The notes beneath the pieces are model-generated. The model saw only the letters and a list, made by a program, of their open reading frames with translations, made no database searches and was not told the DNA's origin. Shown here in pieces: positions 15,032 to 64,000 of a stretch of DNA of 64,000 nucleotides. A program made the position numbers and the translations under genes. This DNA is from Lactobacillus sp. (lineage in GTDB: Bacteria > Bacillota > Bacilli > Lactobacillales > Lactobacillaceae). How positions within the stretch are numbered: the first letter of the stretch is position 1; every line of letters starts with the position of its first letter. Location: NCBI GenBank assembly GCA_022651245.1, contig JALCQM010000011.1:1-64000 (forward strand), given 5' to 3'.

Positions 15032-18000
15032 GTGTTTAAGCGGGAATTTACTGCGCTCATGCACAACAAGGGGTTAATGATCACAATGGTTGCGATCATT
15101 TTGATTCCATTTATCTATTCGTTTTGTTTCTTAACGAGCGCCTGGGATCCATACGGGAATACGGGGAAAATCCCGGTGGCTGTCGTGAACCTCGACAAGC
15201 CAGCGAGCCTGTCGGGTAAGACGATTCAAGCAGGGGCGGATACCGTCAAGCAATTGCGCGACGATAACCAGTTGGAATGGCATTTCGTCACGGCTAAACA
15301 AGCAGCTAAGGGGTTAAAAGACAACCAGTACTATACGGTCGTCACCATCCCGAGTGATTTTTCACAAGATGCCGCGACGGTTTTGGACAAACATCCCAAG
15401 CAAATGAAGCTGACTTATCAGACTAACGGGTCTTTGAACTATGTCTCGGAAATTATCAGCCAAGTCGGGACGGACAAGTTAAACAGTCAGATCAAAGAAA
15501 AGGTGACCACTGCCTTCGTGACGGAGCTATTTTCGAATATCGACACAATCGGTAAGAAGCTGAAGACCGCCTCTAACGGCGCTAAGCAGCTCAAAGACGG
15601 TGTGGTCAAGTATACCGGTGGGGTCACCCAAGTCGACAACGGCTTGACGACCTTGAATGGCAAAGTGCCGGAACTCACGAGTGGCGTGCAGAAGCTGGCT
15701 GACGGCGGCACCACCTTGCATAATGGCCTGGGGACGTTAAACAGTAAAGTGCCTGCTTTGGCTAGCGGCGTTAATCAGTTGGCGGCCGGAGGCAATACCT
15801 TGCATAGTGGCCTTGGCAGTTTAAACGGGCAAATACCAACATTGGCTGGCGGTGTTAATCAGTTGGCGGCAGGTGAGAGTCAATTAGCAACCGGTAGTGG
15901 TAGTTTGTATGGTGGATTAGGTCAGCTGTATGGTCAAGTGCCCGCATTATCTAGTGGCGTTAGTGCACTGGCGACAGGCGGGGGACAACTTAATGCTGGC
16001 CTGAAAACGCTCAATAATAAATTACCTGCGCTCTCGACTGGTGTCGTTAAGCTTAATGACGGCAGCTTGGCACTCAAGAATGGTTTGGGGCAAATTAATG
16101 GCGAGGTGAATGGTAATACGCCAGACACCGACCTGACCACAAGTGTTCAACAGTTAACCACCGGAATGGATCAGCTGTATCAAGCCGTTTCAACCAGCTC
16201 ACAGGAAAATGGTGTGACCTACCCTGCGATGACAGAGGGGGTACAACAGATACAAGACGGCCTACAAAAATTACAGACCTCGACAGCGGATCTGCCAGCT
16301 GGTGCGGCAGCGTTAAGTGCTGCAATGACGAAGTTACAAAAAACAGTTACCTCTCAAATAGGCTTGTTTAGGGCCTTTTATAACGACGCACAGTATCCTG
16401 CTACCGCAAATATGCTAGGGACAGGCAGCGGTTTTGATACTGAAAAGAAGCAATTACAGGCCAACTTGACGAGTGCAGATTCCAAAATGCAGGCCGCAAT
16501 TGACGCGGTCACCGATCCGACACAAAAGGCGGCCTTAGTGGCAGCCTTCAAGGAAGACAAAGCGGCCTCTGGCGCCAGTCAAGCTAAGTTAAATAAAGCG
16601 TACATGGTGTTAAATACAGTTAAATATAATTTAACTAACACAGATACAGAAGCGACAATCAATCCTGCCACGGGTAAAGCAGATCCTAAAGGTCTACTGA
16701 ACGCTGTGACGCAGATCAACGAGAACCTGTCTACACTCAGCACAGGATTAAACAACCCGCAAGCTGATACTGGACAAACGTTTGCGCAAGGCATCGCCGC
16801 ATTGTTGGCCGGGGTTAAGCACCTTAATGCAAATGTGCCTGCGTTGGTGGCAGGCGCTCAAAAGCTAGACGAAGGCTTGAACAAGTTGAATGTTAAGGCG
16901 CCGAAATTAGCGAGTGGCATCTCTAACTTGTATTCAGGGTCAACTGAATTGAGTGGTGGATTAGGGTCCTTAAATGAGCAAGTGCCGAGCTTAACTGCCG
17001 GTGTTGGACAGCTCTACAGCGGCTCTGGTCAGCTAGTAAGTGGCCTGAATGAATTAAATGGCAAAGTACCGGTACTCAAATCGGGTGTTGCGTTGCTTTA
17101 TAGCGGTGCCGGTAAGCTTTATGGTGGTACGAGACAAATGAGTGATGGTTTGAACCGATTACAATCTAACGTACCTGCCCTGACCTCTGGCGTCAGCCAA
17201 CTCTACACGGGTTCAGGTCAACTCTCCGCTGGCCTCAACCAACTCCAAGGTCAAGTTCCGGCCCTGACCTCCGGCGTCAGTCAGCTTTACAACGGGTCCG
17301 GACAGCTTTCCAGTGGCCTCGACCAGCTCAATGGCCAAGTGCCAGCATTGACGTCTGGGATCAAGCAACTCAAGGATGGCACGACCCAGTTGACGGCCAA
17401 GAACCAAGAGCTGAATGACGGGGAACAAACACTGTCTGACGGTTTGACGGATGGCTATCAACAAGTGGCCGGCCAACATTTGACCAAGTTGACAGCCAAG
17501 ATGTTTGCCAATCCCTCTAAGGATGTCCAAAAGAAGTACACGAGCGTGAAGAACTATGGTGCGGCGCTTGCGCCTTATGTACTCGCATTAGCCTTGTTCA
17601 TCGCGATCATCATTTTCAATTTTGCTTATCCAATGCGGCGTACGGCAGATGATGACCGAACGCTGGGGCAATGGCTCGGTGGCAAGATCGCCGTTGGTAC
17701 CGTTATCGCCGTTGCGGCGGCGCTGGTGGAAGCGACCTTGATCTTGTTCGTCCACTTGCCAGTGGCGCATATCGCTGGATTCTACGCGATGACGATCTTG
17801 TTCGCCTTGTCCGCGATGTACTTGACGCAAATGCTCAATCTTGCCTTTAACCGGGTGGGGATCTTTATTGCTTTAGGGTTGCTGACGTTGAGCGGTTCTG
17901 GTGGGTTATTCCCTGCCGAAACGATCAGCCCGCTGTATGAAGCAACGCAGAAATTCCTGCCGATGACTTACGCGATCAATGGCTATCGTGAGGCGATTTC

Positions 18001-18127
18001 TGGTGGGATCGCAGGCGGGACCGTCACGACCAGTGTGATCGTTCTGCTCGTCGTGGCCGTGCTCTCCTTGCTCTTAATGGTGCCGGCGACGATCGCCCAA
18101 GGCAAGACCAAGACGACGGCAGGTTAA
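15032..18127 (+). CDS. YhgE/Pip family membrane protein with long 28-residue repeat arrays
   Basis: The N terminus (MITMVAIILIPFIYSF) and the multi-helix C terminus (about residues 845-1025) match the YhgE/Pip family, related to ABC-2 permeases; Lactococcus Pip is a phage receptor component. The 1031-residue length is large for the family. Residues about 190-360 and 620-800 hold two arrays of a 28-residue unit of the form SGVxxLxxGxxxLxxGLxxLNGxVPAL, four heptads long, which suggests rod-like extracellular coiled coil. The GTG start follows AAGGAG by ten bases. A MarR gene follows. The middle part has AT-richer codons than the ends. Confidence 0.85.
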   Translation: MFKREFTALMHNKGLMITMVAIILIPFIYSFCFLTSAWDPYGNTGKIPVAVVNLDKPASLSGKTIQAGADTVKQLRDDNQLEWHFVTAKQAAKGLKDNQYYTVVTIPSDFSQDAATVLDKHPKQMKLTYQTNGSLNYVSEIISQVGTDKLNSQIKEKVTTAFVTELFSNIDTIGKKLKTASNGAKQLKDGVVKYTGGVTQVDNGLTTLNGKVPELTSGVQKLADGGTTLHNGLGTLNSKVPALASGVNQLAAGGNTLHSGLGSLNGQIPTLAGGVNQLAAGESQLATGSGSLYGGLGQLYGQVPALSSGVSALATGGGQLNAGLKTLNNKLPALSTGVVKLNDGSLALKNGLGQINGEVNGNTPDTDLTTSVQQLTTGMDQLYQAVSTSSQENGVTYPAMTEGVQQIQDGLQKLQTSTADLPAGAAALSAAMTKLQKTVTSQIGLFRAFYNDAQYPATANMLGTGSGFDTEKKQLQANLTSADSKMQAAIDAVTDPTQKAALVAAFKEDKAASGASQAKLNKAYMVLNTVKYNLTNTDTEATINPATGKADPKGLLNAVTQINENLSTLSTGLNNPQADTGQTFAQGIAALLAGVKHLNANVPALVAGAQKLDEGLNKLNVKAPKLASGISNLYSGSTELSGGLGSLNEQVPSLTAGVGQLYSGSGQLVSGLNELNGKVPVLKSGVALLYSGAGKLYGGTRQMSDGLNRLQSNVPALTSGVSQLYTGSGQLSAGLNQLQGQVPALTSGVSQLYNGSGQLSSGLDQLNGQVPALTSGIKQLKDGTTQLTAKNQELNDGEQTLSDGLTDGYQQVAGQHLTKLTAKMFANPSKDVQKKYTSVKNYGAALAPYVLALALFIAIIIFNFAYPMRRTADDDRTLGQWLGGKIAVGTVIAVAAALVEATLILFVHLPVAHIAGFYAMTILFALSAMYLTQMLNLAFNRVGIFIALGLLTLSGSGGLFPAETISPLYEATQKFLPMTYAINGYREAISGGIAGGTVTTSVIVLLVVAVLSLLLMVPATIAQGKTKTTAG
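15640..16090 (+). repeat. First in-gene array of 84-base repeats
   Basis: About five consecutive 84-base units within the YhgE/Pip gene encode 28-residue repeats, each carrying a variant of LNGKVPAL. The units have diverged at the DNA level, more than those in the second array. Confidence 0.75.
16890..17380 (+). repeat. Second in-gene array of 84-base repeats
   Basis: About six units of 28 codons carry variants of SGVSQLYTGSGQLSAGL. The last two or three (17170-17360) are close copies and GC-rich, the earlier ones AT-richer, which suggests recent duplication at the 3' side. Confidence 0.75.
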
Positions 18128-18185: not shown

Positions 18186-18638
18186 ATGGCCAACACTGAC
18201 TTGTTAGAGGCGTATATCGAAGTGTATTTCCGCGCATTCAAGTACGTGGGAGATTTGATCTCAGAGCCGATGAAGGCCGACGGGATTTCGTTTGAACAGT
18301 TTTTGATCATGCGAGACCTCGCCGCTGGGCATCAACTGAGTTTGTCTGAAATTGCGCAGCGTCGTGGGGTGACCCGCGCAGCGATTTCGCGGCAGATCAA
18401 GACCTTATTGGAAAAAGAGACGATCGTGCAAGAACGTGACGCCGATGACCGTCGGCGCTTGTACCTGCGGTTGACGCCGCATGGTGAAGAAGTCACCACG
18501 CGGGTCAATAAGGTGATCCATAAGCGGTTCTACGATTGGGTCGAGGCGCTGGGTGAAGATGACGCCAAGGAGCTCCTGCGCATTATGCGCAAAGTGGGCG
18601 CAACCATCATCGCCAAAGACCGCGCGCAAACGGACTAG
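18186..18638 (+). CDS. MarR family transcriptional regulator
   Basis: The 150-residue winged-helix regulator contains the MarR signature: recognition segment LSLSEIAQRRGVTRAAISRQI and wing DADDRRRLYLRLT. It starts at ATG 18186 behind AGGAGGGTGATG. Lying 58 bases after the YhgE/Pip gene and ahead of a terminator, it is probably co-transcribed and likely represses the operon through the palindrome at 14966-14980. The ligand is unknown. Confidence 0.92.
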   Translation: MANTDLLEAYIEVYFRAFKYVGDLISEPMKADGISFEQFLIMRDLAAGHQLSLSEIAQRRGVTRAAISRQIKTLLEKETIVQERDADDRRRLYLRLTPHGEEVTTRVNKVIHKRFYDWVEALGEDDAKELLRIMRKVGATIIAKDRAQTD

Positions 18639-18744: not shown

Positions 18745-19145
18745 AACAAGTTCGTCCATAAACCGATGAGGTGGAGATCAAGATCATTGTGCGCGCACAG
18801 AGAGCGGCCGTTGCTGGGAATGCCGTCGAACGCAGGTGATTAAATGGACCACCGAGGGACAAGCCAAAAGAACCAAGTGCGCAAGGATGGCGCATTTAGG
18901 GCTACGGCTAGCGGATCGTGAGCGTCGCGTGCAAAGCACGCAAGCGAATGATCGCTAGGCGCTAGCCCGTTGCCATTCTGTAGCACGATGATCGAGTCAG
19001 CTTGTACGTCAGGCATACGTCAGTTGCCGGGAGGGTGTTAGCCCTTCGCTGAGTGGGGGTAGTGTTGTTTGCATTACCCAATTAAGGTGGCACCGCGGAA
19101 TAATCCGTCCTTAAACAGTATGACTGTTTATGGGCGGATTTTTTG
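18745..19145 (+). promoter_or_regulatory. T-box riboswitch, tRNA(Trp)-responsive leader
   Basis: A leader of about 400 bases has the T-box layout. Stem I closes with AGGTGG near 18766 against CCACC at 18849-18853, and the distal part contains AGAGAGCGG and GCTGGGAAT. The probable specifier codon TGG (18845-18847), for tryptophan, is followed by a purine. The conserved T-box AAGGTGGCACCGCGG spans 19084-19098 and overlaps the antiterminator. The competing terminator is AATCCGTCC (19102-19110) with GGGCGGATT ending at 19140 and a T run. Uncharged tRNA(Trp) would permit transcription of trpDCFBA. Confidence 0.93.
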
Positions 19146-19241: not shown

Positions 19242-20261
19242 ATGTTAAACCAAACGATCAACACTTTATTGCAACATACCGACTTATCTTTTGCTGAAAC
19301 GAAAGCGGCCCATGATGAACTCTTACAAGGCCAGGTGCCAGACGGCTTGATCGCCAGCTACTTGACCGCGATGGCGGCTAAAGGGGCGACGGCCACGGAA
19401 ATCGCCGGTGCCGCCGAATCGATGCGGGCCAACGCCTTGGCGTTTTCAGCCCCAGAACCAGTGCTAGAAATCGTCGGGACAGGGGGCGATCATGCCAACA
19501 CGTTTAACATTTCGACCACGAGCATGTTCGTGATCGCCGCAGCTGGTGTGCCGATCGCCAAGCACGGCAACCGGGCTGCGAGTTCTAAGTCGGGCGCCGC
19601 CGATGTCCTAGAGGCGTTAGGCTACAATATCAACGCCTCTGTGGCGGAAAGCGAAGCCTTGTTGGCTAAGTACCATGCGTGCTTCTTATTCGCCCAAAAG
19701 TACCACGCGTCCATGCGGTTTGTCGGCCCGATGCGTAAGCTGTTAGGTTTCCCGACGATCTTCAACTTGATCGGGCCCTTGGCCAATCCAGCCAAGCCCA
19801 CCTACCAACTGCTCGGGGTTTACCGCGAAGACTTGATGCAACCGATGGCTGACGCCTTGATCCAACTCGGCGTGAAGCGGGGGATGGTCGTTCATGGTGA
19901 AGATGGCTTGGATGAAGTCACTGCCACCGGCAAAACCGATGCCTTGTTGATCGCCGATGGTCAAGTCACCGCCTTAACCATCGACCCGGCTGATTACGGG
20001 ATCGCTTATGCTGATCCGGCCGCCTTAGTCGGTGGGACCCCCGCTGAAAATGCGGCGATCACCCGCGAGATCTTGGGTGGTGCGCAAGGCCCTAAAACCG
20101 ATGCCGTGATCTTGAACGGCGGGGTAGCGCTGTTCGTTGCTGGGCAAGCAGCCACGATCGCCGATGGTATCGCCCAAGTACGGACCATTTTGGCCGAAAA
20201 GCGGGCCTTGACCTTGCTAGATCACTTAGTGGCAGACAGTACCCAAGAGGTGAGTGCATGA
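19242..20261 (+). CDS. trpD: Anthranilate phosphoribosyltransferase
   Basis: TrpD transfers phosphoribose from PRPP to anthranilate, the second step of tryptophan synthesis. The glycine-rich PRPP loop GTGGDHANTFNIST lies near residues 80-93, and KHGNRAASSKSGAADVLEALG is the conserved anthranilate-side segment. Length is 339 residues. The ATG follows GAGGAGG and lies about 100 bases after the T-box terminator. It is the first gene of the operon; trpE and trpG, which make anthranilate, are not present upstream. Confidence 0.95.
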   Translation: MLNQTINTLLQHTDLSFAETKAAHDELLQGQVPDGLIASYLTAMAAKGATATEIAGAAESMRANALAFSAPEPVLEIVGTGGDHANTFNISTTSMFVIAAAGVPIAKHGNRAASSKSGAADVLEALGYNINASVAESEALLAKYHACFLFAQKYHASMRFVGPMRKLLGFPTIFNLIGPLANPAKPTYQLLGVYREDLMQPMADALIQLGVKRGMVVHGEDGLDEVTATGKTDALLIADGQVTALTIDPADYGIAYADPAALVGGTPAENAAITREILGGAQGPKTDAVILNGGVALFVAGQAATIADGIAQVRTILAEKRALTLLDHLVADSTQEVSA

Positions 20262-27969: not shown

Positions 27970-29401
27970 AGTCTTATTCGCCGCCGCAGAAGGGGCGCCG
28001 TTCTATAAGACCGGCGGGTTAGGGGATGTGGCGTACGCGTTGCCCAAAGCACTGCGGCAAGCTGGCGTCGACATTCGCGTGGTACTCCCTTTTTATACGC
28101 GGCTGTTTCCAGAACAATATCGCGATGCCCTGAAGCCCAAGGCCCGCTTTTCCGTGAAAGTGGGGCAGCAAGAACAGTACGTTGGCGTCTTGACGATGAA
28201 ACTTGGCGACGTCACGTATTACTTTATTGATAACGAAGCCTTTTTTGCCCGGGATCAGCTTTACGGCTATTGGGATGATGGGGGCCGCTTTGGCTTCTAC
28301 CAAATGGCGATCATCGAGATGTTGCAGGTGATCGGCTTCATTCCGGATATCTTGCACCTCAACGACTGGCACACCGCCTTTATTCCGGTGCTGTTGAAGG
28401 ATAAGTACCAGTGGATCACGCCTTATCAGCAGATCAAGACCCAGCTGACCATCCACAACTTGCAGTTTCAAGGCTGGTTCCCGCCATCTGTCTTAACGGA
28501 TGTTTTCGGTATCGGGCGGCAGTTCTTCAACGACAACGGGTACGCGCAAGACGGTTCGGTGAATTACCTCAAAGGCGGGATCAACTTCGCCGATTTGGTC
28601 ACGACGGTCAGCCCGAGTTATGCCGGCGAGATCCAAACGCCGGAGTTCGGCGAGCACCTCGATGGCACGCTGCGTCAACAAAATTGGAAGCTACGCGGCA
28701 TTTTGAACGGGATCGACACGGCGCTGTACGACCCACAAACCGACGCCCAGCTGTACGCCAACTACAGTGCGGCCGATCTCAGTGGTAAGCACCAAGACAA
28801 GCGGGCGTTGCAGCGTGAATTGGGGTTGCCAGAAGCCGATGTGCCCCTGTTTGGTGTGGTCTCGCGCCTGACTCGGCAAAAAGGGATGGATATATTGGCT
28901 TCGGCGTTAGACCAGCTCTTACCAGACACGGATTTGCAGGTTGTTTTGTTGGGCACAGGGGATGGCGACTTAGAGGCGCGGTTTGACGCCTTGCACATCC
29001 ACTATGCCGGCAAGGTCGCGACTGTGATCGGGTTTGACACCGCCTTGGCCCAGCGAATTTATGCTGGTGCGGACTATTTCGTGATGCCATCAGCCTTTGA
29101 ACCCAGCGGCTTAGCCCAGATGATGGCGATGCGCTACGGCACCTTACCCGTCGTCCATGAAACGGGCGGCCTGCGCGATTCGGTTACGCCGTACAACGCC
29201 ACGGATGGAACGGGGGATGGCTTCACCTTCTGGGAGTTCACCCAAGACGTTCTGGCGGCCACCTTGCAACGCGCCGCCTTAGTCTACCAAGCTGAACCCG
29301 CCGTCTACGCACAACTGCAACAAAACGCAATGGCCAAAGACTTCGACTGGATCCACGCCGCCCAAGATTACCTGAGCGGCTATCAGGGACTATTAGGATA
29401 G
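27962..29401 (+). CDS. glgA: Glycogen synthase (GT5)
   Basis: GlgA extends alpha-1,4 chains from ADP-glucose. The ADP-glucose motif KTGGLGDVAYALPKAL lies at residues 17-32, DWHT near 140, and the C-terminal acceptor-side EPSGLAQMMAMRYG near 380. Length is 479 residues. The stop codon lies within a 19-base sequence that is repeated 124 bases downstream, so the last codons belong to the tandem repeat array behind the gene. Confidence 0.95.
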   Translation: MLKVLFAAAEGAPFYKTGGLGDVAYALPKALRQAGVDIRVVLPFYTRLFPEQYRDALKPKARFSVKVGQQEQYVGVLTMKLGDVTYYFIDNEAFFARDQLYGYWDDGGRFGFYQMAIIEMLQVIGFIPDILHLNDWHTAFIPVLLKDKYQWITPYQQIKTQLTIHNLQFQGWFPPSVLTDVFGIGRQFFNDNGYAQDGSVNYLKGGINFADLVTTVSPSYAGEIQTPEFGEHLDGTLRQQNWKLRGILNGIDTALYDPQTDAQLYANYSAADLSGKHQDKRALQRELGLPEADVPLFGVVSRLTRQKGMDILASALDQLLPDTDLQVVLLGTGDGDLEARFDALHIHYAGKVATVIGFDTALAQRIYAGADYFVMPSAFEPSGLAQMMAMRYGTLPVVHETGGLRDSVTPYNATDGTGDGFTFWEFTQDVLAATLQRAALVYQAEPAVYAQLQQNAMAKDFDWIHAAQDYLSGYQGLLG

Positions 29402-29640
29402 AGCGCGACCCGACCCGCATTTAGGCGAGTGCATAAGGCAGCGTGGCGGGGTGCGGCGGCAGCCGCGCACAGACGCGATGACTTATGCGCAGCGCCGTTG
29501 GGTCGAGGGAGCGCGTTTAGGATAGAGCGCGACCCAGCACGGTTTTAGGGGAGAGTGTAAGGCAGCGTGGCACGATGCGGCGACAGCCGTAGCGGGACGC
29601 GAAGACTTACACACCTCCCCGTTGCCTTGGAGAAGCGCGT
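29393..29640 (+). repeat. Structured tandem repeat, locus A (two units, glgA-glgP gap)
   Basis: Two units with a period of about 124 bases fill the gap. Both open with TTAGGATAGAGCGCGACCC, pass an AUUUAG/UUUUAG motif, and fold back. Unit 1 pairs GTGCATAAG with CTTATGCGC, and unit 2 pairs AGTGTAAG with CTTACAC, with GGGGAG against CTCCCC outside it. The arms differ between units but stay complementary. A truncated third start (AAGCGCGTTTAG) sits at 29632. The same family occurs at 36.1 and 49.9 kb. Confidence 0.8.
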
Positions 29641-36071: not shown

Positions 36072-36428
36072 AAACCAAAGCGGAGCCGGGCGCATTTAGC
36101 AATGTGTGTAAGACAGCGTGGGTGCGTACCGGCAAGGCCGGTGCGTGACCGTGATGACTTACACGCAATTGCGTTGCCCGGCGCAGCTCGAGGAAGAGCC
36201 AAAGCGGAGCATCGCGTTTTAGCGGGTCAAAATAATAAGGGGTAGTGGTGCGCAAGCTTGCTTGCGTGCCGCTGCGCCTTTTATTTTGTGCCCGCGGTGC
36301 GGTGCGCAGCTCGAGGAAAAACCAAAGCGAGGCACCGTGTTTTAACGAGTCAAAGTAAATCAGGTGTCGTGGTGCGCAAGTTTACTCGCGTACCACGGCG
36401 CCTTATTATTTTGGGCTCTTCGTCAAGT
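36072..36428 (+). repeat. Structured tandem repeat, locus B (three units behind tig)
   Basis: Units begin with CCAAAGCG at about 36074, 36199 and 36322, and the first two end in AGCTCGAGGA. Unit 1 pairs GTGTGTAAG with CTTACACGC, then GCAAT with ATTGC. Units 2 and 3 replace this by CAAAATAATAAGG facing CCTTTTATTTTG, and CAAAGTAAATCAGG facing CCTTATTATTTTG. The lower stem of unit 2, GCATCGCG with CGCGGTGC, is fully paired with one wobble. Unit 1 is nearly identical to the first unit at 49.9 kb. Confidence 0.8.
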
Positions 36429-47671: not shown

Positions 47672-49879
47672 ATGAGTATGACAATCCAATTAGCACCGGA
47701 AGCCGTGGCAGCTATCACCGAGCAGGTGACGCCGCATTGGGGCCCACTCGGCTGGGTCACGTATAAGCGCACCTACGCCCGTTGGCGCGATGATCAAGGG
47801 CGCAGCGAGGAGTGGGCCGAAACCGTCCAGCGCGTCGTCGAAGGCAACATCAACTTGGACCCGCGCTTGCAAGACGCGACGCCGGCTTCGCCTGTCGTGG
47901 CGGAATTACAGGCAGAAGCCGTACAACTGTTCAAGCTGGTTTACGGCTTGGCGGCGACGCCAAGCGGGCGCAACTTGTGGATCTCAGGGTCAGACTACCA
48001 GCACCGCAACGGGGATGCGTTGAATAACTGTTGGTTCATTGCGGTGCGGCCGCAAGCCTATGGCGATAGTCATATTCAGCCGTTTTACCTGCATCGTGAC
48101 ACGATCGCACCATCAATGCCGTTCGCGTTCTTGTTCGATCAATTGATGAAAGGTGGCGGCGTGGGCTTTTCGGTTGCCAATGACAATGTGGCCCAGCTAC
48201 CGCCGGTCGATCAAAAAATTACCGTCGCCATCACCAGCGACCAAGGCGCCAAGGCCTACGACGAGGCCTTAGCGGTCGGAGCCGTGGATGCTGCCAGTGA
48301 TGAAGCTGTCCACGGAACCGAAGACGCTTTACGCTACCGCCTGCCAGACACCCGCGAAGGCTGGGTCGTCGCGTTGGCCGCGTTGATCGATGCGCATTTT
48401 AACAGCATTAACGAGGCGCAAACACCGCGCGTGGTCTTGGATATTTCCAATATCCGTGCGCGTGGTGCCCGCATCCACGGCTTCGGCGGGACTGCCTCAG
48501 GCCCGGCACCGTTGATCGAAATGCTCCAAGACGTGAACGCGATCCTCAATGCGCGGGTGGGCAAGCAGCTCTCTGCCGTCGATTGCACGGATATCGGCAA
48601 CCTGATCGGCAAGGCCGTGGTCGCCGGTAACGTGCGCCGCTCGGCGGAGATTGCCTTAGGCGATAGTACCAACAACGAGTTTATCACCATGAAGCAAGAC
48701 AAGGACAAGCTCTACCACCACCGGTGGGCGTCGAATAACTCTGTGATCGTGACCAGCGCCTTCACGACGTATGCGGAAGTCGCCCAAGCCGTCGCGCAAA
48801 ATGGGGAGCCGGGGATGTTCAACCTTGAGCTGTCCCAAAACTACGGACGGCTGATCGATGGGTTGCAACCGGGGATCGACGCGACGGTCGAAGGCACGAA
48901 TCCGTGTGGGGAGATCTCCTTAGCCAATGGCGAGCCTTGTAACTTGTTCGAAGTTTTCCCGACCATCGCCACGCAACAAGGCTGGGATTTGAAAACCGTC
49001 ATGGCTTTGGCGGCGCGCTACACCAAGCGGGTGACCTTCAGCGCGTATGATTGGGAAGTGTCCCGGCGCGTGATCACGCACAACCGGCGCATTGGCGTGT
49101 CTTTGTCCGGCCTGCAAGACTGGCTCTTGACGCAGTTTGGCCACCGGGTCGTGACCGGGTTTGACGCACAGGGGCAGGCGCAATATGACCCGACGATCGT
49201 GCAGGCGGTCGATGACTTGTATCACGCCGTAGTCGCAGCCGATGAGGCGTATTCGACGACCTTGCACTGCAACCCGTCGCTGAAGCATACGACCGTCAAG
49301 CCCAGTGGCACTGTGTCCAAGTTGGCCGGCGTGTCGGAAGGGATGCATTTTCACTACAGCAACTACTTGATCCAGCGCATTCGCTTCCAAGACACCGACC
49401 CGCTGCTGCCGGCGCTAGAAGCGTGTGGTTATGCGATCGAGCCCGACATCTACACGAAAAATACGATGTGCGTCTCCTTCCCTGTGCGGGCTGCCAACGC
49501 CGATGATCCCGCGTTCGCCAGTGCCGGGAACGTTTCGATCGAAGAGCAATTCGCGACGCAGGCCTTCTTGCAGACATATTGGTCTGATAACGCGGTTTCG
49601 TGCACGATTACCTTCCAACCAGAAGAAGCGCCCAAAATCGCGGGTTTGCTGCGGCAATATCGGCACACGATCAAGTCCACCTCATTGCTGCCATACGCCG
49701 GGGACGTCTACGAACAAGCCCCCAAGCAGCCGATCACCAAAGCGCAATACCTTGACGAAGTGATCAAGATCAAAGGCGACGTCCAAACCGTTTACGCCCA
49801 ACTCAACGGCCAAGAAAACAAGGACCTCGAACTGGTCGGCCAAGAAGACTGCGCAACAGGCGCCTGCCCGATAAAGTAA
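47672..49879 (+). CDS. nrdJ: Adenosylcobalamin-dependent ribonucleoside-triphosphate reductase (class II)
   Basis: This is a monomeric class II RNR that reduces NTPs using coenzyme B12. The length (735) and layout follow the L. leichmannii enzyme (739). The first redox Cys is in NNCWFIAVRP (about C120), the thiyl-radical Cys in NPCGEISLANGEPC (about C412) and its partner about C423. The shuttle pair CATGAC lies at the C terminus (C727, C732). ATG 47672 follows GGGGGAA. Downstream genes import and adenosylate cobalamin. A tandem array of structured repeats starts at its stop codon. Confidence 0.95.
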   Translation: MSMTIQLAPEAVAAITEQVTPHWGPLGWVTYKRTYARWRDDQGRSEEWAETVQRVVEGNINLDPRLQDATPASPVVAELQAEAVQLFKLVYGLAATPSGRNLWISGSDYQHRNGDALNNCWFIAVRPQAYGDSHIQPFYLHRDTIAPSMPFAFLFDQLMKGGGVGFSVANDNVAQLPPVDQKITVAITSDQGAKAYDEALAVGAVDAASDEAVHGTEDALRYRLPDTREGWVVALAALIDAHFNSINEAQTPRVVLDISNIRARGARIHGFGGTASGPAPLIEMLQDVNAILNARVGKQLSAVDCTDIGNLIGKAVVAGNVRRSAEIALGDSTNNEFITMKQDKDKLYHHRWASNNSVIVTSAFTTYAEVAQAVAQNGEPGMFNLELSQNYGRLIDGLQPGIDATVEGTNPCGEISLANGEPCNLFEVFPTIATQQGWDLKTVMALAARYTKRVTFSAYDWEVSRRVITHNRRIGVSLSGLQDWLLTQFGHRVVTGFDAQGQAQYDPTIVQAVDDLYHAVVAADEAYSTTLHCNPSLKHTTVKPSGTVSKLAGVSEGMHFHYSNYLIQRIRFQDTDPLLPALEACGYAIEPDIYTKNTMCVSFPVRAANADDPAFASAGNVSIEEQFATQAFLQTYWSDNAVSCTITFQPEEAPKIAGLLRQYRHTIKSTSLLPYAGDVYEQAPKQPITKAQYLDEVIKIKGDVQTVYAQLNGQENKDLELVGQEDCATGACPIK

Positions 49880-50375
49880 ACCAGAGCGGAGCCGGGCGTA
49901 TTTAGCAATGTGTGTAAGGCAGCGTGGGTGCGTACCGGCACAGCCGGTGCGTGACCGCGATGACTTAGACGCAATTGCGTTGCCCGACGGAGCTCGAGGA
50001 GAAAACCAGAGCGCAGTGGCGCGGTTTTAGCGGTGTGTGTAAGGTAGCCTGGTCGTTGTGCGGCGAAGCCGTGCAGCGGCCGGGATGACTTAGACGCAAC
50101 CGCATTGCGGCACGGAGCTCGAGGAGAAAACCAGAGCGCAGTGGCGTGGTTTTAGCGGTGTGTGTAAGGTAGCCTGGTCGTTGTGCGGCGAAGCCGTGCA
50201 GCGGCCGGGATGACTTACTCGCAACCGCATTGCGCCAAGGAGCTCGAGGAGAAACCCAGAGCGCAGTGGCGCGGTTATGGGAGACGGGCTAACAGGGATT
50301 GGTGGTGGGTGGCGACAGCCGCGCGCCGCCGAGACCGGTTAGAACGCTCGCCCATGCGCCAAGGAGCGCGACGAC
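49879..50375 (+). repeat. Structured tandem repeat, locus C (four units behind nrdJ)
   Basis: Units start with CCAGAGCG at about 49880, 50006, 50130 and with CCCAGAGCG near 50254; the first three end in GGAGCTCGAGGAG. Unit 1 pairs GCAAT with ATTGC, while units 2 and 3 pair GCGGT with ACCGC at the same place, above the common GTGTGTAAG/CTTA arm. Units 2 and 3 are near-identical. Unit 4 has diverged (GGGCTAAC facing GTTAG). An inner hairpin GCGGC-GAA-GCCGT or CCGGC/GCCGG caps each unit. Confidence 0.82.
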
Positions 50376-62905: not shown

Positions 62906-64000
62906 ATGACAAAACATAACACTAAAGCAGTTATCGCTGCTGGGGTAGCGGCTGCAGGGTTGTTCTCTGTTGCTGCGTTTGGGTCCAACAACGTTTCCGC
63001 TGATACCACGACTTTTGGTCAAAAGTTGCAACAGCAAAACAGCGTTAACTCGACGACTGACACGAAGGATCCGGTTGCGGTAGCAGCACCATCTACCAGC
63101 ACAACTGGCAAGACGTTCGGTCAAAAGCTGCAAGAAAACAGCGCCAACGCTAACACCACGACGCCAACAACGACGACCACCACGCCTACTACTACCACGA
63201 CTGGCAACAAGACGTTCGGTCAAAAGTTGCAAGAACACAGCGCCAATGCTAACACCACGACGCCAACAACCACAACGACTACGCCTACTACCACCACAAC
63301 TGATAACAAGACGTTTGGTCAAAAGTTGCAAGAAGGTAATGGTTCTGCCTCTACCACAACCACGACCACTTCTACAACTACGACGACCAACGACAACAAG
63401 ACGTTCGGTCAAAAGTTGCAAGACAAGAGCAACACTGGCGCAACGACAACTGACACCAAGACCACGACTACTGACACTAAGAAGGGTGCCAATGGTCTGA
63501 TCACCAACACCGACGAATACACTGCTGACCAACTCGGCATCACCGTTGATCAGTTGCATGCACAACAAGACCTGACCAAGTTGAACGAACTGAAGGCCTT
63601 GTACGAAAACAGCTTGAAGCAAGGTTTCACCGCCCAAGCTAACATCGCTAAGCAACAATACGACGCTTTGAAGGCTAAGATGGAAGCCGCTGGCGAACCT
63701 ACCGACGACACCAAGACGCCTGATAACGGTGGCAAGGACACTGATACCAACACCAACACTGGTGACGATACCAAGACCGACACCGACACAACCACCGACA
63801 CCAAGAAGGACGACGTTACGACGCCAGCCAAGGAAGGCGATAAGACCCCAGCGAAGACGGCTACCGTTGCGACTGCAACCAAGACCGCTACCGTTAAGGC
63901 TACCGCTGCCAAGACTGCTACTGCAACGACCGTAGCCGCTGCTAAGACAGCTGCTGCAGCTGCTGCTAAGTCCGCAACCTACCCAGCAACTGGTGATAAC
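62906..64000 (+). CDS. Secreted surface protein with repeated TFGQKLQ motifs (3' end cut by window)
   Basis: The frame is open for 365 codons to the window edge. A signal peptide (MTKHNTKAVIAAGVAAAG..., cleavage near VSA-DT) leads five copies of TFGQKLQ separated by Thr-rich linkers, spanning about residues 35-180. A helical segment follows (LGITVDQLHAQQDLTKLNELKALYENSL). Then come an acidic Asp/Thr linker and an Ala/Thr/Lys-rich wall-spanning stretch. The last visible residues, YPATGDN, look like a variant LPxTG sorting signal, so the gene probably ends shortly after the edge. No named family is recognised. Strong promoter and codons suggest abundance. Confidence 0.8.
   Translation, partial: MTKHNTKAVIAAGVAAAGLFSVAAFGSNNVSADTTTFGQKLQQQNSVNSTTDTKDPVAVAAPSTSTTGKTFGQKLQENSANANTTTPTTTTTTPTTTTTGNKTFGQKLQEHSANANTTTPTTTTTTPTTTTTDNKTFGQKLQEGNGSASTTTTTTSTTTTTNDNKTFGQKLQDKSNTGATTTDTKTTTTDTKKGANGLITNTDEYTADQLGITVDQLHAQQDLTKLNELKALYENSLKQGFTAQANIAKQQYDALKAKMEAAGEPTDDTKTPDNGGKDTDTNTNTGDDTKTDTDTTTDTKKDDVTTPAKEGDKTPAKTATVATATKTATVKATAAKTATATTVAAAKTAAAAAAKSATYPATGDN

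Follow-up and report, generated by a model that had tools for sequence, protein, structure and literature searches.

A dispersed family of tandem hairpin repeats at gene ends in Lacticaseibacillus and other Bacilli, probably REP- or BOX-like RNA elements

We analyzed a stretch of 64,000 nucleotides (nt) from Lactobacillus sp. (assembly GCA_022651245.1, contig JALCQM010000011.1, positions 1 to 64,000 of the forward strand; the window), in which an initial annotation had pointed to structured repeats standing in tandem behind nrdJ, tig and glgA. By the best named matches of its trigger factor, the sampled genus is Lacticaseibacillus. The repeat unit is a single long hairpin of ∼115 nt with conserved internal loops. 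Arrays of such units abut stop codons far above chance, and the family is not confined to lactobacilli but reaches other Bacilli. The arrays are probably intercistronic or 3′-untranslated region (3′-UTR) RNA elements that act on mRNA stability, similar to the repetitive extragenic palindromic (REP) and BOX repeats.

Fold of the unit and arrays of the window

Most units are 109–116 nt long. For the fold test 89 units were extracted from this genome and reduced to 42 dissimilar ones; two failed trimming and the remainder were redundant. Over these 42 units 90.9% of the cells pair in comparison to 73.8% after shuffling, both partners change in 33 of 43 pairs, and double-sided changes number 308 versus 95. 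No shuffle out of 500 attained the observed value of any of the five pairing measures, although related rows are not independent and kinship alone can beat shuffles without structure. When the partner was slid by 1–3 columns pairing dropped to 28.5–45.2%; the structure had been written by hand on the tested alignment and is favored over its slid versions. A second alignment of 18 units from other Bacilli, which were themselves found using the first model, was evaluated with its own RNAalifold structure: 97.8% of the cells are paired, 21 of 35 pairs carry double changes and 0 of 500 shuffles match. One unit-like sequence per group, folded singly, gave nearly the same dot-bracket strings, and the TAAG/CTTA motif and loop positions are conserved in this genome as well as in units of other Bacilli. 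The covariation that the initial annotation had read as the mark of a selected RNA fold is therefore upheld. On the array strand we counted 195 G-U cells versus 26 A-C cells, and 91 versus 24 when four wobble-dominated column pairs were left out. Because G-U cells exceed A-C cells, the RNA of the array (sense) strand appears to be under selection. Among 117 unit pairs of 93–99.9% identity, which are not independent, stem from the 150 best matches and were aligned by fitting to the model, paired positions differ at 0.027 and unpaired positions at 0.109. Single changes in these near-identical units keep pairing in 86 cases and break it in 122 (41% kept versus a random expectation of 28%), and double changes keep it in 19 cases and break it in three.

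In the window itself, all three arrays are in sense orientation with a repeat period of 123–125 nt: two units lie behind glgA, three behind tig, the last of them truncated, and four behind nrdJ (Table 1). Unit limits and scores were taken from covariance model R1, those of the truncated unit from nhmmer, and the genes glgA, glgP, tig and nrdJ were named via NCBIfam. All nine units that had been claimed for these loci were recovered, but a lone divergent unit, flanked by an open reading frame (ORF) ending at 18638 and another starting at 19242, had been missed. The GATGACTTA motif ascribed to the units is not universal, as units 2 and 3 of array B and unit 4 of array C are variants with other arms. 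Unit 2 of array B carries a hairpin and a T-rich arm like an intrinsic terminator and was picked up by our terminator scan.

Table 1. Repeat units and linker identified in the 64,000-nt window
Feature	Position	Strand	Score	Remarks
Lone divergent unit	18877..18988	+	R1 50.6 bits, E 8.8e-11	
Array A unit 1	29403..29516	+	R1 90.2 bits	between glgA and glgP, 1 nt past glgA TAG 29399-29401
Array A linker TTAGGATAGA	29517..29526	+		identical to the 10 nt preceding unit 1 (glgA end, stop codon and one base)
Array A unit 2	29527..29640	+	R1 82.4 bits	
Array B unit 1	36078..36191	+	R1 113.2 bits	10 nt past tig TAA 36065-36067
Array B unit 2	36202..36314	+	R1 70.6 bits	CAAAATAATAA/TTTTATTTTG variant
Array B unit 3	36326..36410	+	nhmmer 18.6 bits	CAAAATAATAA/TTTTATTTTG variant without 3′ end, model positions 2-85
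Array C unit 1	49884..49997	+	R1 113.8 bits	4 nt past nrdJ TAA 49877-49879
Array C unit 2	50009..50122	+	R1 111.2 bits	
Array C unit 3	50134..50247	+	R1 107.6 bits	
Array C unit 4	50259..50371	+	R1 79.1 bits	TTATGG variant; also matched by model R2, E 4e-7

Two other kinds of repeat were seen in the window. A tandem 99-nt repeat at 63109–63334 is followed, as far as 63856, by repeats of 21 and 24 nt, perhaps encoding the stalk of a threonine-rich surface protein, and an ORF of 1031 amino acids (15032–18127) contains two imperfect 84-nt duplications (15713–15870 and 17177–17340).

Genomic placement and turnover of the arrays

A genome search with blastn yielded 57 places and R1 at least 150 matches; units were then counted in the stretches around the matches, where 244 R1 matches were reduced to 193 units by removing, by hand, the weaker match where a unit was matched on both strands. 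The family is thus dispersed, as had been proposed: at least 193 units occupy 74 places and, as a lower bound, 0.84% of the assembly, with 16 single, 22 double and 20 triple arrays and 16 of four to seven units. The upstream gene lies on the same strand at 53 of the 74 places and on the opposite strand at 16, and none was called at five. At 43 places an ORF of 80 codons or more has its stop codon within 25 nt upstream (TAA 34, TAG 7, TGA 2); two of these stop codons (L200, L204) are doubtful, as their ORFs are short and lie beside a longer gene on the opposite strand. Both neighbors were called, with the upstream gene on the same strand, for 49 arrays. Of these, 40 start within 11 nt of the stop codon (an ORF running into the array being counted as 0); uniform placement in the gap predicts 8.6, and 0 of 20000 simulations reached the observed number. 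Of 64 arrays, only 7 end within 11 nt of the downstream gene.

From 43 host proteins 33 were scanned for identity, together with ten downstream proteins (NCBIfam). Arrays stand between atpG and atpD, gyrB and gyrA, hslV and hslU, hisD and hisB, tdk and prfA, glyS and dnaG as well as glgA and glgP, and further arrays are found behind nrd, topA and tRNA-synthetase genes. The pairs atpG–atpD and gyrB–gyrA are normally co-transcribed, so that RNA polymerase should cross the arrays, which argues against a general terminator role. Such a role was also rejected on the frequency of terminators within 255 nt downstream, which does not differ between arrays (9/43) and control genes (31/136); this frequency neither helps nor hurts an effect on mRNA stability. 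With our own scan, which was strict, a terminator was placed inside the array at only 4 of 74 places, and the arrays do not conform to the definition of an intrinsic terminator (GC hairpin followed by a T-run).

Neighboring units are separated by linkers of 3–13 nt in 116 of 119 cases, which leaves no room for genes. The linkers resemble the left flank of their own array (4.52) more than the flanks of other arrays (3.04 ± 0.16; 55 arrays). Since linker classes share their last bases, the permutation was repeated within classes for 52 arrays, three of the 55 being dropped because their classes were too small: values of 4.34 versus 3.76 ± 0.14, 4.05 versus 3.36 ± 0.16 and 2.61 versus 2.23 ± 0.11 were obtained for the left flank, the right flank and the left flank minus its terminal 3 nt, respectively, none of them reached in 1000 permutations. 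The effect is real but modest. It is compatible with insertion that duplicates a short target, or with a flank and its unit being duplicated together, and is clearest in the glgA array, where TTAGGATAGA occurs both ahead of unit 1 and as the linker. Separately, three arrays (L230, L238 and L246) have the upstream sequence TGGGGGTCTTTGGTGTG in common (before positions 2501, 2501 and 183) and some arrays of genome G002 share CTTTGGCGTGTC or ACTGGACGTGTCTTTGTCGTGAGA; these sequences may be another repeat or the end of a mobile element.

The units of one array resemble each other in their outer stems (0.80 within versus 0.68 between arrays), but their cores are on average no closer than those of different arrays (0.633 versus 0.626; shuffled labels 0.626 ± 0.009; 192 of 193 units, one being left out for its length). 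We compared these arrays with those of G002, which is L. baoqingensis: its tig locus lies letter for letter within an L. baoqingensis contig. The G002 arrays came from 25 stretches and L250, picked among the listed matches and not comprising every copy. Sixteen of the 28 examined arrays stand behind counterparts of array-bearing regions of our genome, several with near base-exact flanks, and the flanks of these matching arrays have diverged to 77–88% identity. Core identity between counterpart arrays is that of random pairings (0.626 versus 0.627 ± 0.011; best-match cores 0.691 versus 0.689 ± 0.014), and outer stems are slightly closer (0.776 versus 0.744 ± 0.013). Cores at least 95% alike occur in different arrays in 200 of 18310 pairs here, in 33 of 2822 pairs in G002 and in 6 of 14861 pairs across the two genomes; at 90% the numbers are 615, 126 and 135 pairs. 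Within our genome 77 pairs have the same arms with different tips and 12 the same tips with different arms. From these comparisons, cores seem to be copied among the arrays of one genome while array ends stay local. The nrdJ gene of G002 carries units too. No unit was found behind tig or glgA in G002/L. baoqingensis, and both proteins end at the same place there, hence the stop codons are native. By eye, a terminator-like hairpin with a T-run lies behind tig in L. baoqingensis and three other Lacticaseibacillus species.

Distribution among Bacilli and on plasmids

Within the genus, R1 detected units in 27 of the 30 genomes and none in G004, G009 and G012. In the family 50 of 397 genomes drawn (9 of 40 genera) gave units, and in the class 8 of 299, seven of them outside the family. 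Model R2, built only from units outside the family, found 55 of 398 genomes of the class, representing 30 of 146 genera; as only 9 candidates (R1 family, R2 class) or 12 (R1 class) were scored per genome, absences in these surveys are weak. R2 in turn matches units of the window, besides unit 4 of array C also 36078–36191 (E 4.8e-7). Outside the family, tandem units lie 123–125 nt apart in L350, L351, L352 and L357, in 5 of 11 arrays (L350, L352, L354, L355 and L357) a long ORF has its stop codon 0–6 nt ahead of the array start, and linkers match the flank of their own array by eye. In some Lactobacillaceae units are single, stand behind T-runs or lie antisense beside possible ribosome-binding sites, again by eye; two antisense mirror matches were left out when stop codons and flanks of other loci were inspected. 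Locus L186, taken at an estimated position, contained no match. In G006 a four-unit array is located ∼50 nt past the RNase P RNA gene, by a T-run (L189:1043-1401 and 1451-1940).

The unit type of the window and one array of other Bacilli had no blastn match in plasmids or phages, and two patterns searched in viral contigs were not found there. One L. paracasei-like array, in contrast, matched 14 plasmid records of Lacticaseibacillus and Pediococcus and no phage. R1 confirmed units on three of four plasmid loci, from L. paracasei, L. rhamnosus and Pediococcus acidilactici, and gave no match in L383. On plasmid pWX3 (L382:2500-2795), between phosphotransferase system genes and a DUF956 gene, a first hairpin unit recognized by eye is followed by an R1 unit at 2630–2743 and then by a coreless remnant with both ends.

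Two enzymes were considered for mobilization, and neither tracks the presence of units. The Y1 transposase (PF01797), with REP-associated tyrosine transposases and the IS200 type pooled, occurs in 13 of the 30 genomes of the genus: 12 of the 27 that carry units and 1 of the 3 that do not; for reverse transcriptase the numbers are 10 of 27 and 1 of 3. G006 and G027, which carry 116 and 95 units, have neither.

Explanations and related systems

We consider a selected RNA element with a role in blocking decay, spread by insertion and gene conversion, to be the best full explanation, with a probability of about one half. The arrays would be transcribed together with the upstream gene, as its 3′-UTR or as intercistronic RNA, and the stack of hairpins at the stop codon would block 3′-to-5′ decay, so that the upstream message outlasts the remaining operon transcript. 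REP sequences in malE–malF shield upstream mRNA from decay in this way. For pneumococcal BOX elements, shielding from 3′ exonucleases has been proposed (PMC3049150). The first unit of an array may insert beside a terminator or stop codon and duplicate a few bases in doing so; further units could then be added via re-insertion or tandem duplication, and gene conversion with other arrays as donors could rewrite the cores. Among the roles suggested initially (3′-end protection, processed small RNAs, a REP-like element) the data favor a REP/BOX-like intercistronic RNA element.

Several points weigh against this explanation. Transcription of the arrays is something we infer, and genes were called as longest ORFs. 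At 21 of 74 places, the 16 with an opposite-strand and the five without a called upstream gene, the array cannot serve as 3′-UTR of that gene. The initial annotation had each of its three arrays starting at or within ten bases of a stop codon in the same orientation, which holds for the window; in the genome, 31 of 74 places have no long-ORF stop codon nearby, and in four of these the scan placed a terminator within 90 nt upstream. G027 has antisense units adjoining putative ribosome-binding sites, as judged by eye. No copying enzyme was found in a search that covered Y1 transposase and reverse transcriptase and no other enzymes. For 41 of 192 units, as opposed to an expected 2.3, the most similar core belongs to the same array, and cores are near-identical in 18 of 218 same-array pairs, so that tandem duplication also occurs besides exchange among arrays. 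Finally, exact linker/flank endings of at least 6 nt are found in 22 of 55 arrays versus 13.1 after permutation, a modest effect, and pairing constraint could yield part of the linker–flank likeness.

Alternatively, the units might be a selfish mobile repeat, the sites being tolerated or targeted for insertion (stop codons, terminator ends) and the fold serving mobilization only. Flank-like linkers, cores copied among arrays, units behind terminators and the plasmid copies are all consistent with such a repeat. However, pairing persists over 42 dissimilar units, more than half of the examined L. baoqingensis arrays remain at matching genes despite diverged flanks, and neither candidate enzyme follows the units; we regard this possibility as doubtful. 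A more elaborate picture strikes us as rather improbable: long-lived docking arrays at gene ends would have their RNA cassettes rewritten from a genome-wide pool while keeping their own ends and linkers, with capture or RNA-templated copying across Bacilli.

It is quite unlikely that the arrays control termination of upstream translation through ribosomes stalled at the stop codon, a role reported for E. coli REPs lying at most 15 nt from it (PMC12306157). The stop-codon distances of 1–11 nt would suit this role, but the 21 places without a called same-strand upstream gene would not. We give still less credence to units that are each cut out as a small RNA or protein-binding decoy: the units are discrete and their TAAG/CTTA motif and loop positions are kept in other Bacilli, yet the cores vary widely and get exchanged. 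Tandem transcription terminators are highly improbable; four arrays do contain a terminator-like variant unit, and L. baoqingensis has its apparent terminator behind tig just where the array sits here, but 70 of 74 arrays gave no internal terminator in the scan and arrays interrupt atpG–atpD and gyrB–gyrA. An element acting at the DNA level seems the least probable of all: integron attC sites are imperfect single-stranded DNA hairpins of similar length with cassette-like turnover around them, which the units recall, but neither the excess of G-U over A-C nor the gene-free linkers fit.

The family is a structured RNA without an Rfam match, and its carriers include genera of food and probiotic use (Lacticaseibacillus, and Pediococcus by its plasmids) as well as other Bacilli. 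From their position between atp, gyr, hsl and his genes and behind nrd, topA and tRNA-synthetase genes the arrays may set mRNA levels, and their fixed position with replaced content makes them a natural system for studying how bacterial repeats spread and are homogenized.

Concerning known families, no Rfam 15 family reached its gathering cut-off in the window; in 20 further loci the sole matches were to RNase P, T-box and PyrR, all outside the units, and 10 loci of Bacilli gave no match. Permissive scans returned sub-threshold matches only, the best being plant MIR531 at unit 1 of array C (E 0.0028, 29.3 bits, cut-off 70). This agrees with the initial annotation, which had recognized no described RNA. 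The outcomes it had named as refuting, an Rfam match or a lack of covariation and further copies, did not occur. In the literature no earlier description was recognized, which is weak evidence as it was judged by titles and abstract openings and subscription papers are scarcely covered.

Integron attC arrays carry cassette genes between their sites and are served by an integron integrase; the linkers found here are mostly too short for genes. Correia, ERIC and bcr repeats and miniature inverted-repeat transposable elements (MITEs) are likewise small hairpins dispersed over genomes, and some of them duplicate their target. Compared by description only, they differ in that here whole units stand in tandem and no transposase is linked to them. 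MITEs are marked by terminal inverted repeats and a target duplication due to a known transposase; the present arrays have flank-like linkers. Bacillaceae-1, Lacto-rpoB, Lacto-usp and L17DE, candidate RNAs of Bacilli listed in PMC2864571, come from the same bacterial groups and had no match at gathering cut-off in the window and the 30 loci. A survey of 40 genomes (PMC2267715) lists stem-loop families such as Bhal-1, Efa-1 and Lac-1, which are likewise intergenic stem-loops of Bacilli with tens of copies; their listed sizes, for example 74 and 163 nt, differ, and as this alone sets them apart the present family may have been sighted earlier under one of these names. The BOX elements of Streptococcus pneumoniae are similarly modular and array-forming, and PMC3049150 describes them as transcribed 3′ or 5′ extensions of operons. 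They are built as boxA-boxB(n)-boxC with only boxB repeating, whereas here, in a comparison of anatomy only, whole hairpin units are repeated together with flank-like linkers. REP sequences, palindromes of 20–40 nt in alternating orientation, and the bacterial interspersed mosaic elements (BIMEs) which they form, also occur between the genes of operons. Our arrays share with them the intergenic hairpins, the many copies and the extragenic placement with many copies within 15 nt of a stop codon; for E. coli, PMC12306157 gives 446 of 4,072 REPs at this distance. However, the units described here are ∼115 nt long, have one orientation within arrays, covary over the full length of their RNA and are not consistently accompanied by a Y1 transposase. 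The family thus behaves like the REP and BOX repeats yet fails their anatomical definitions.

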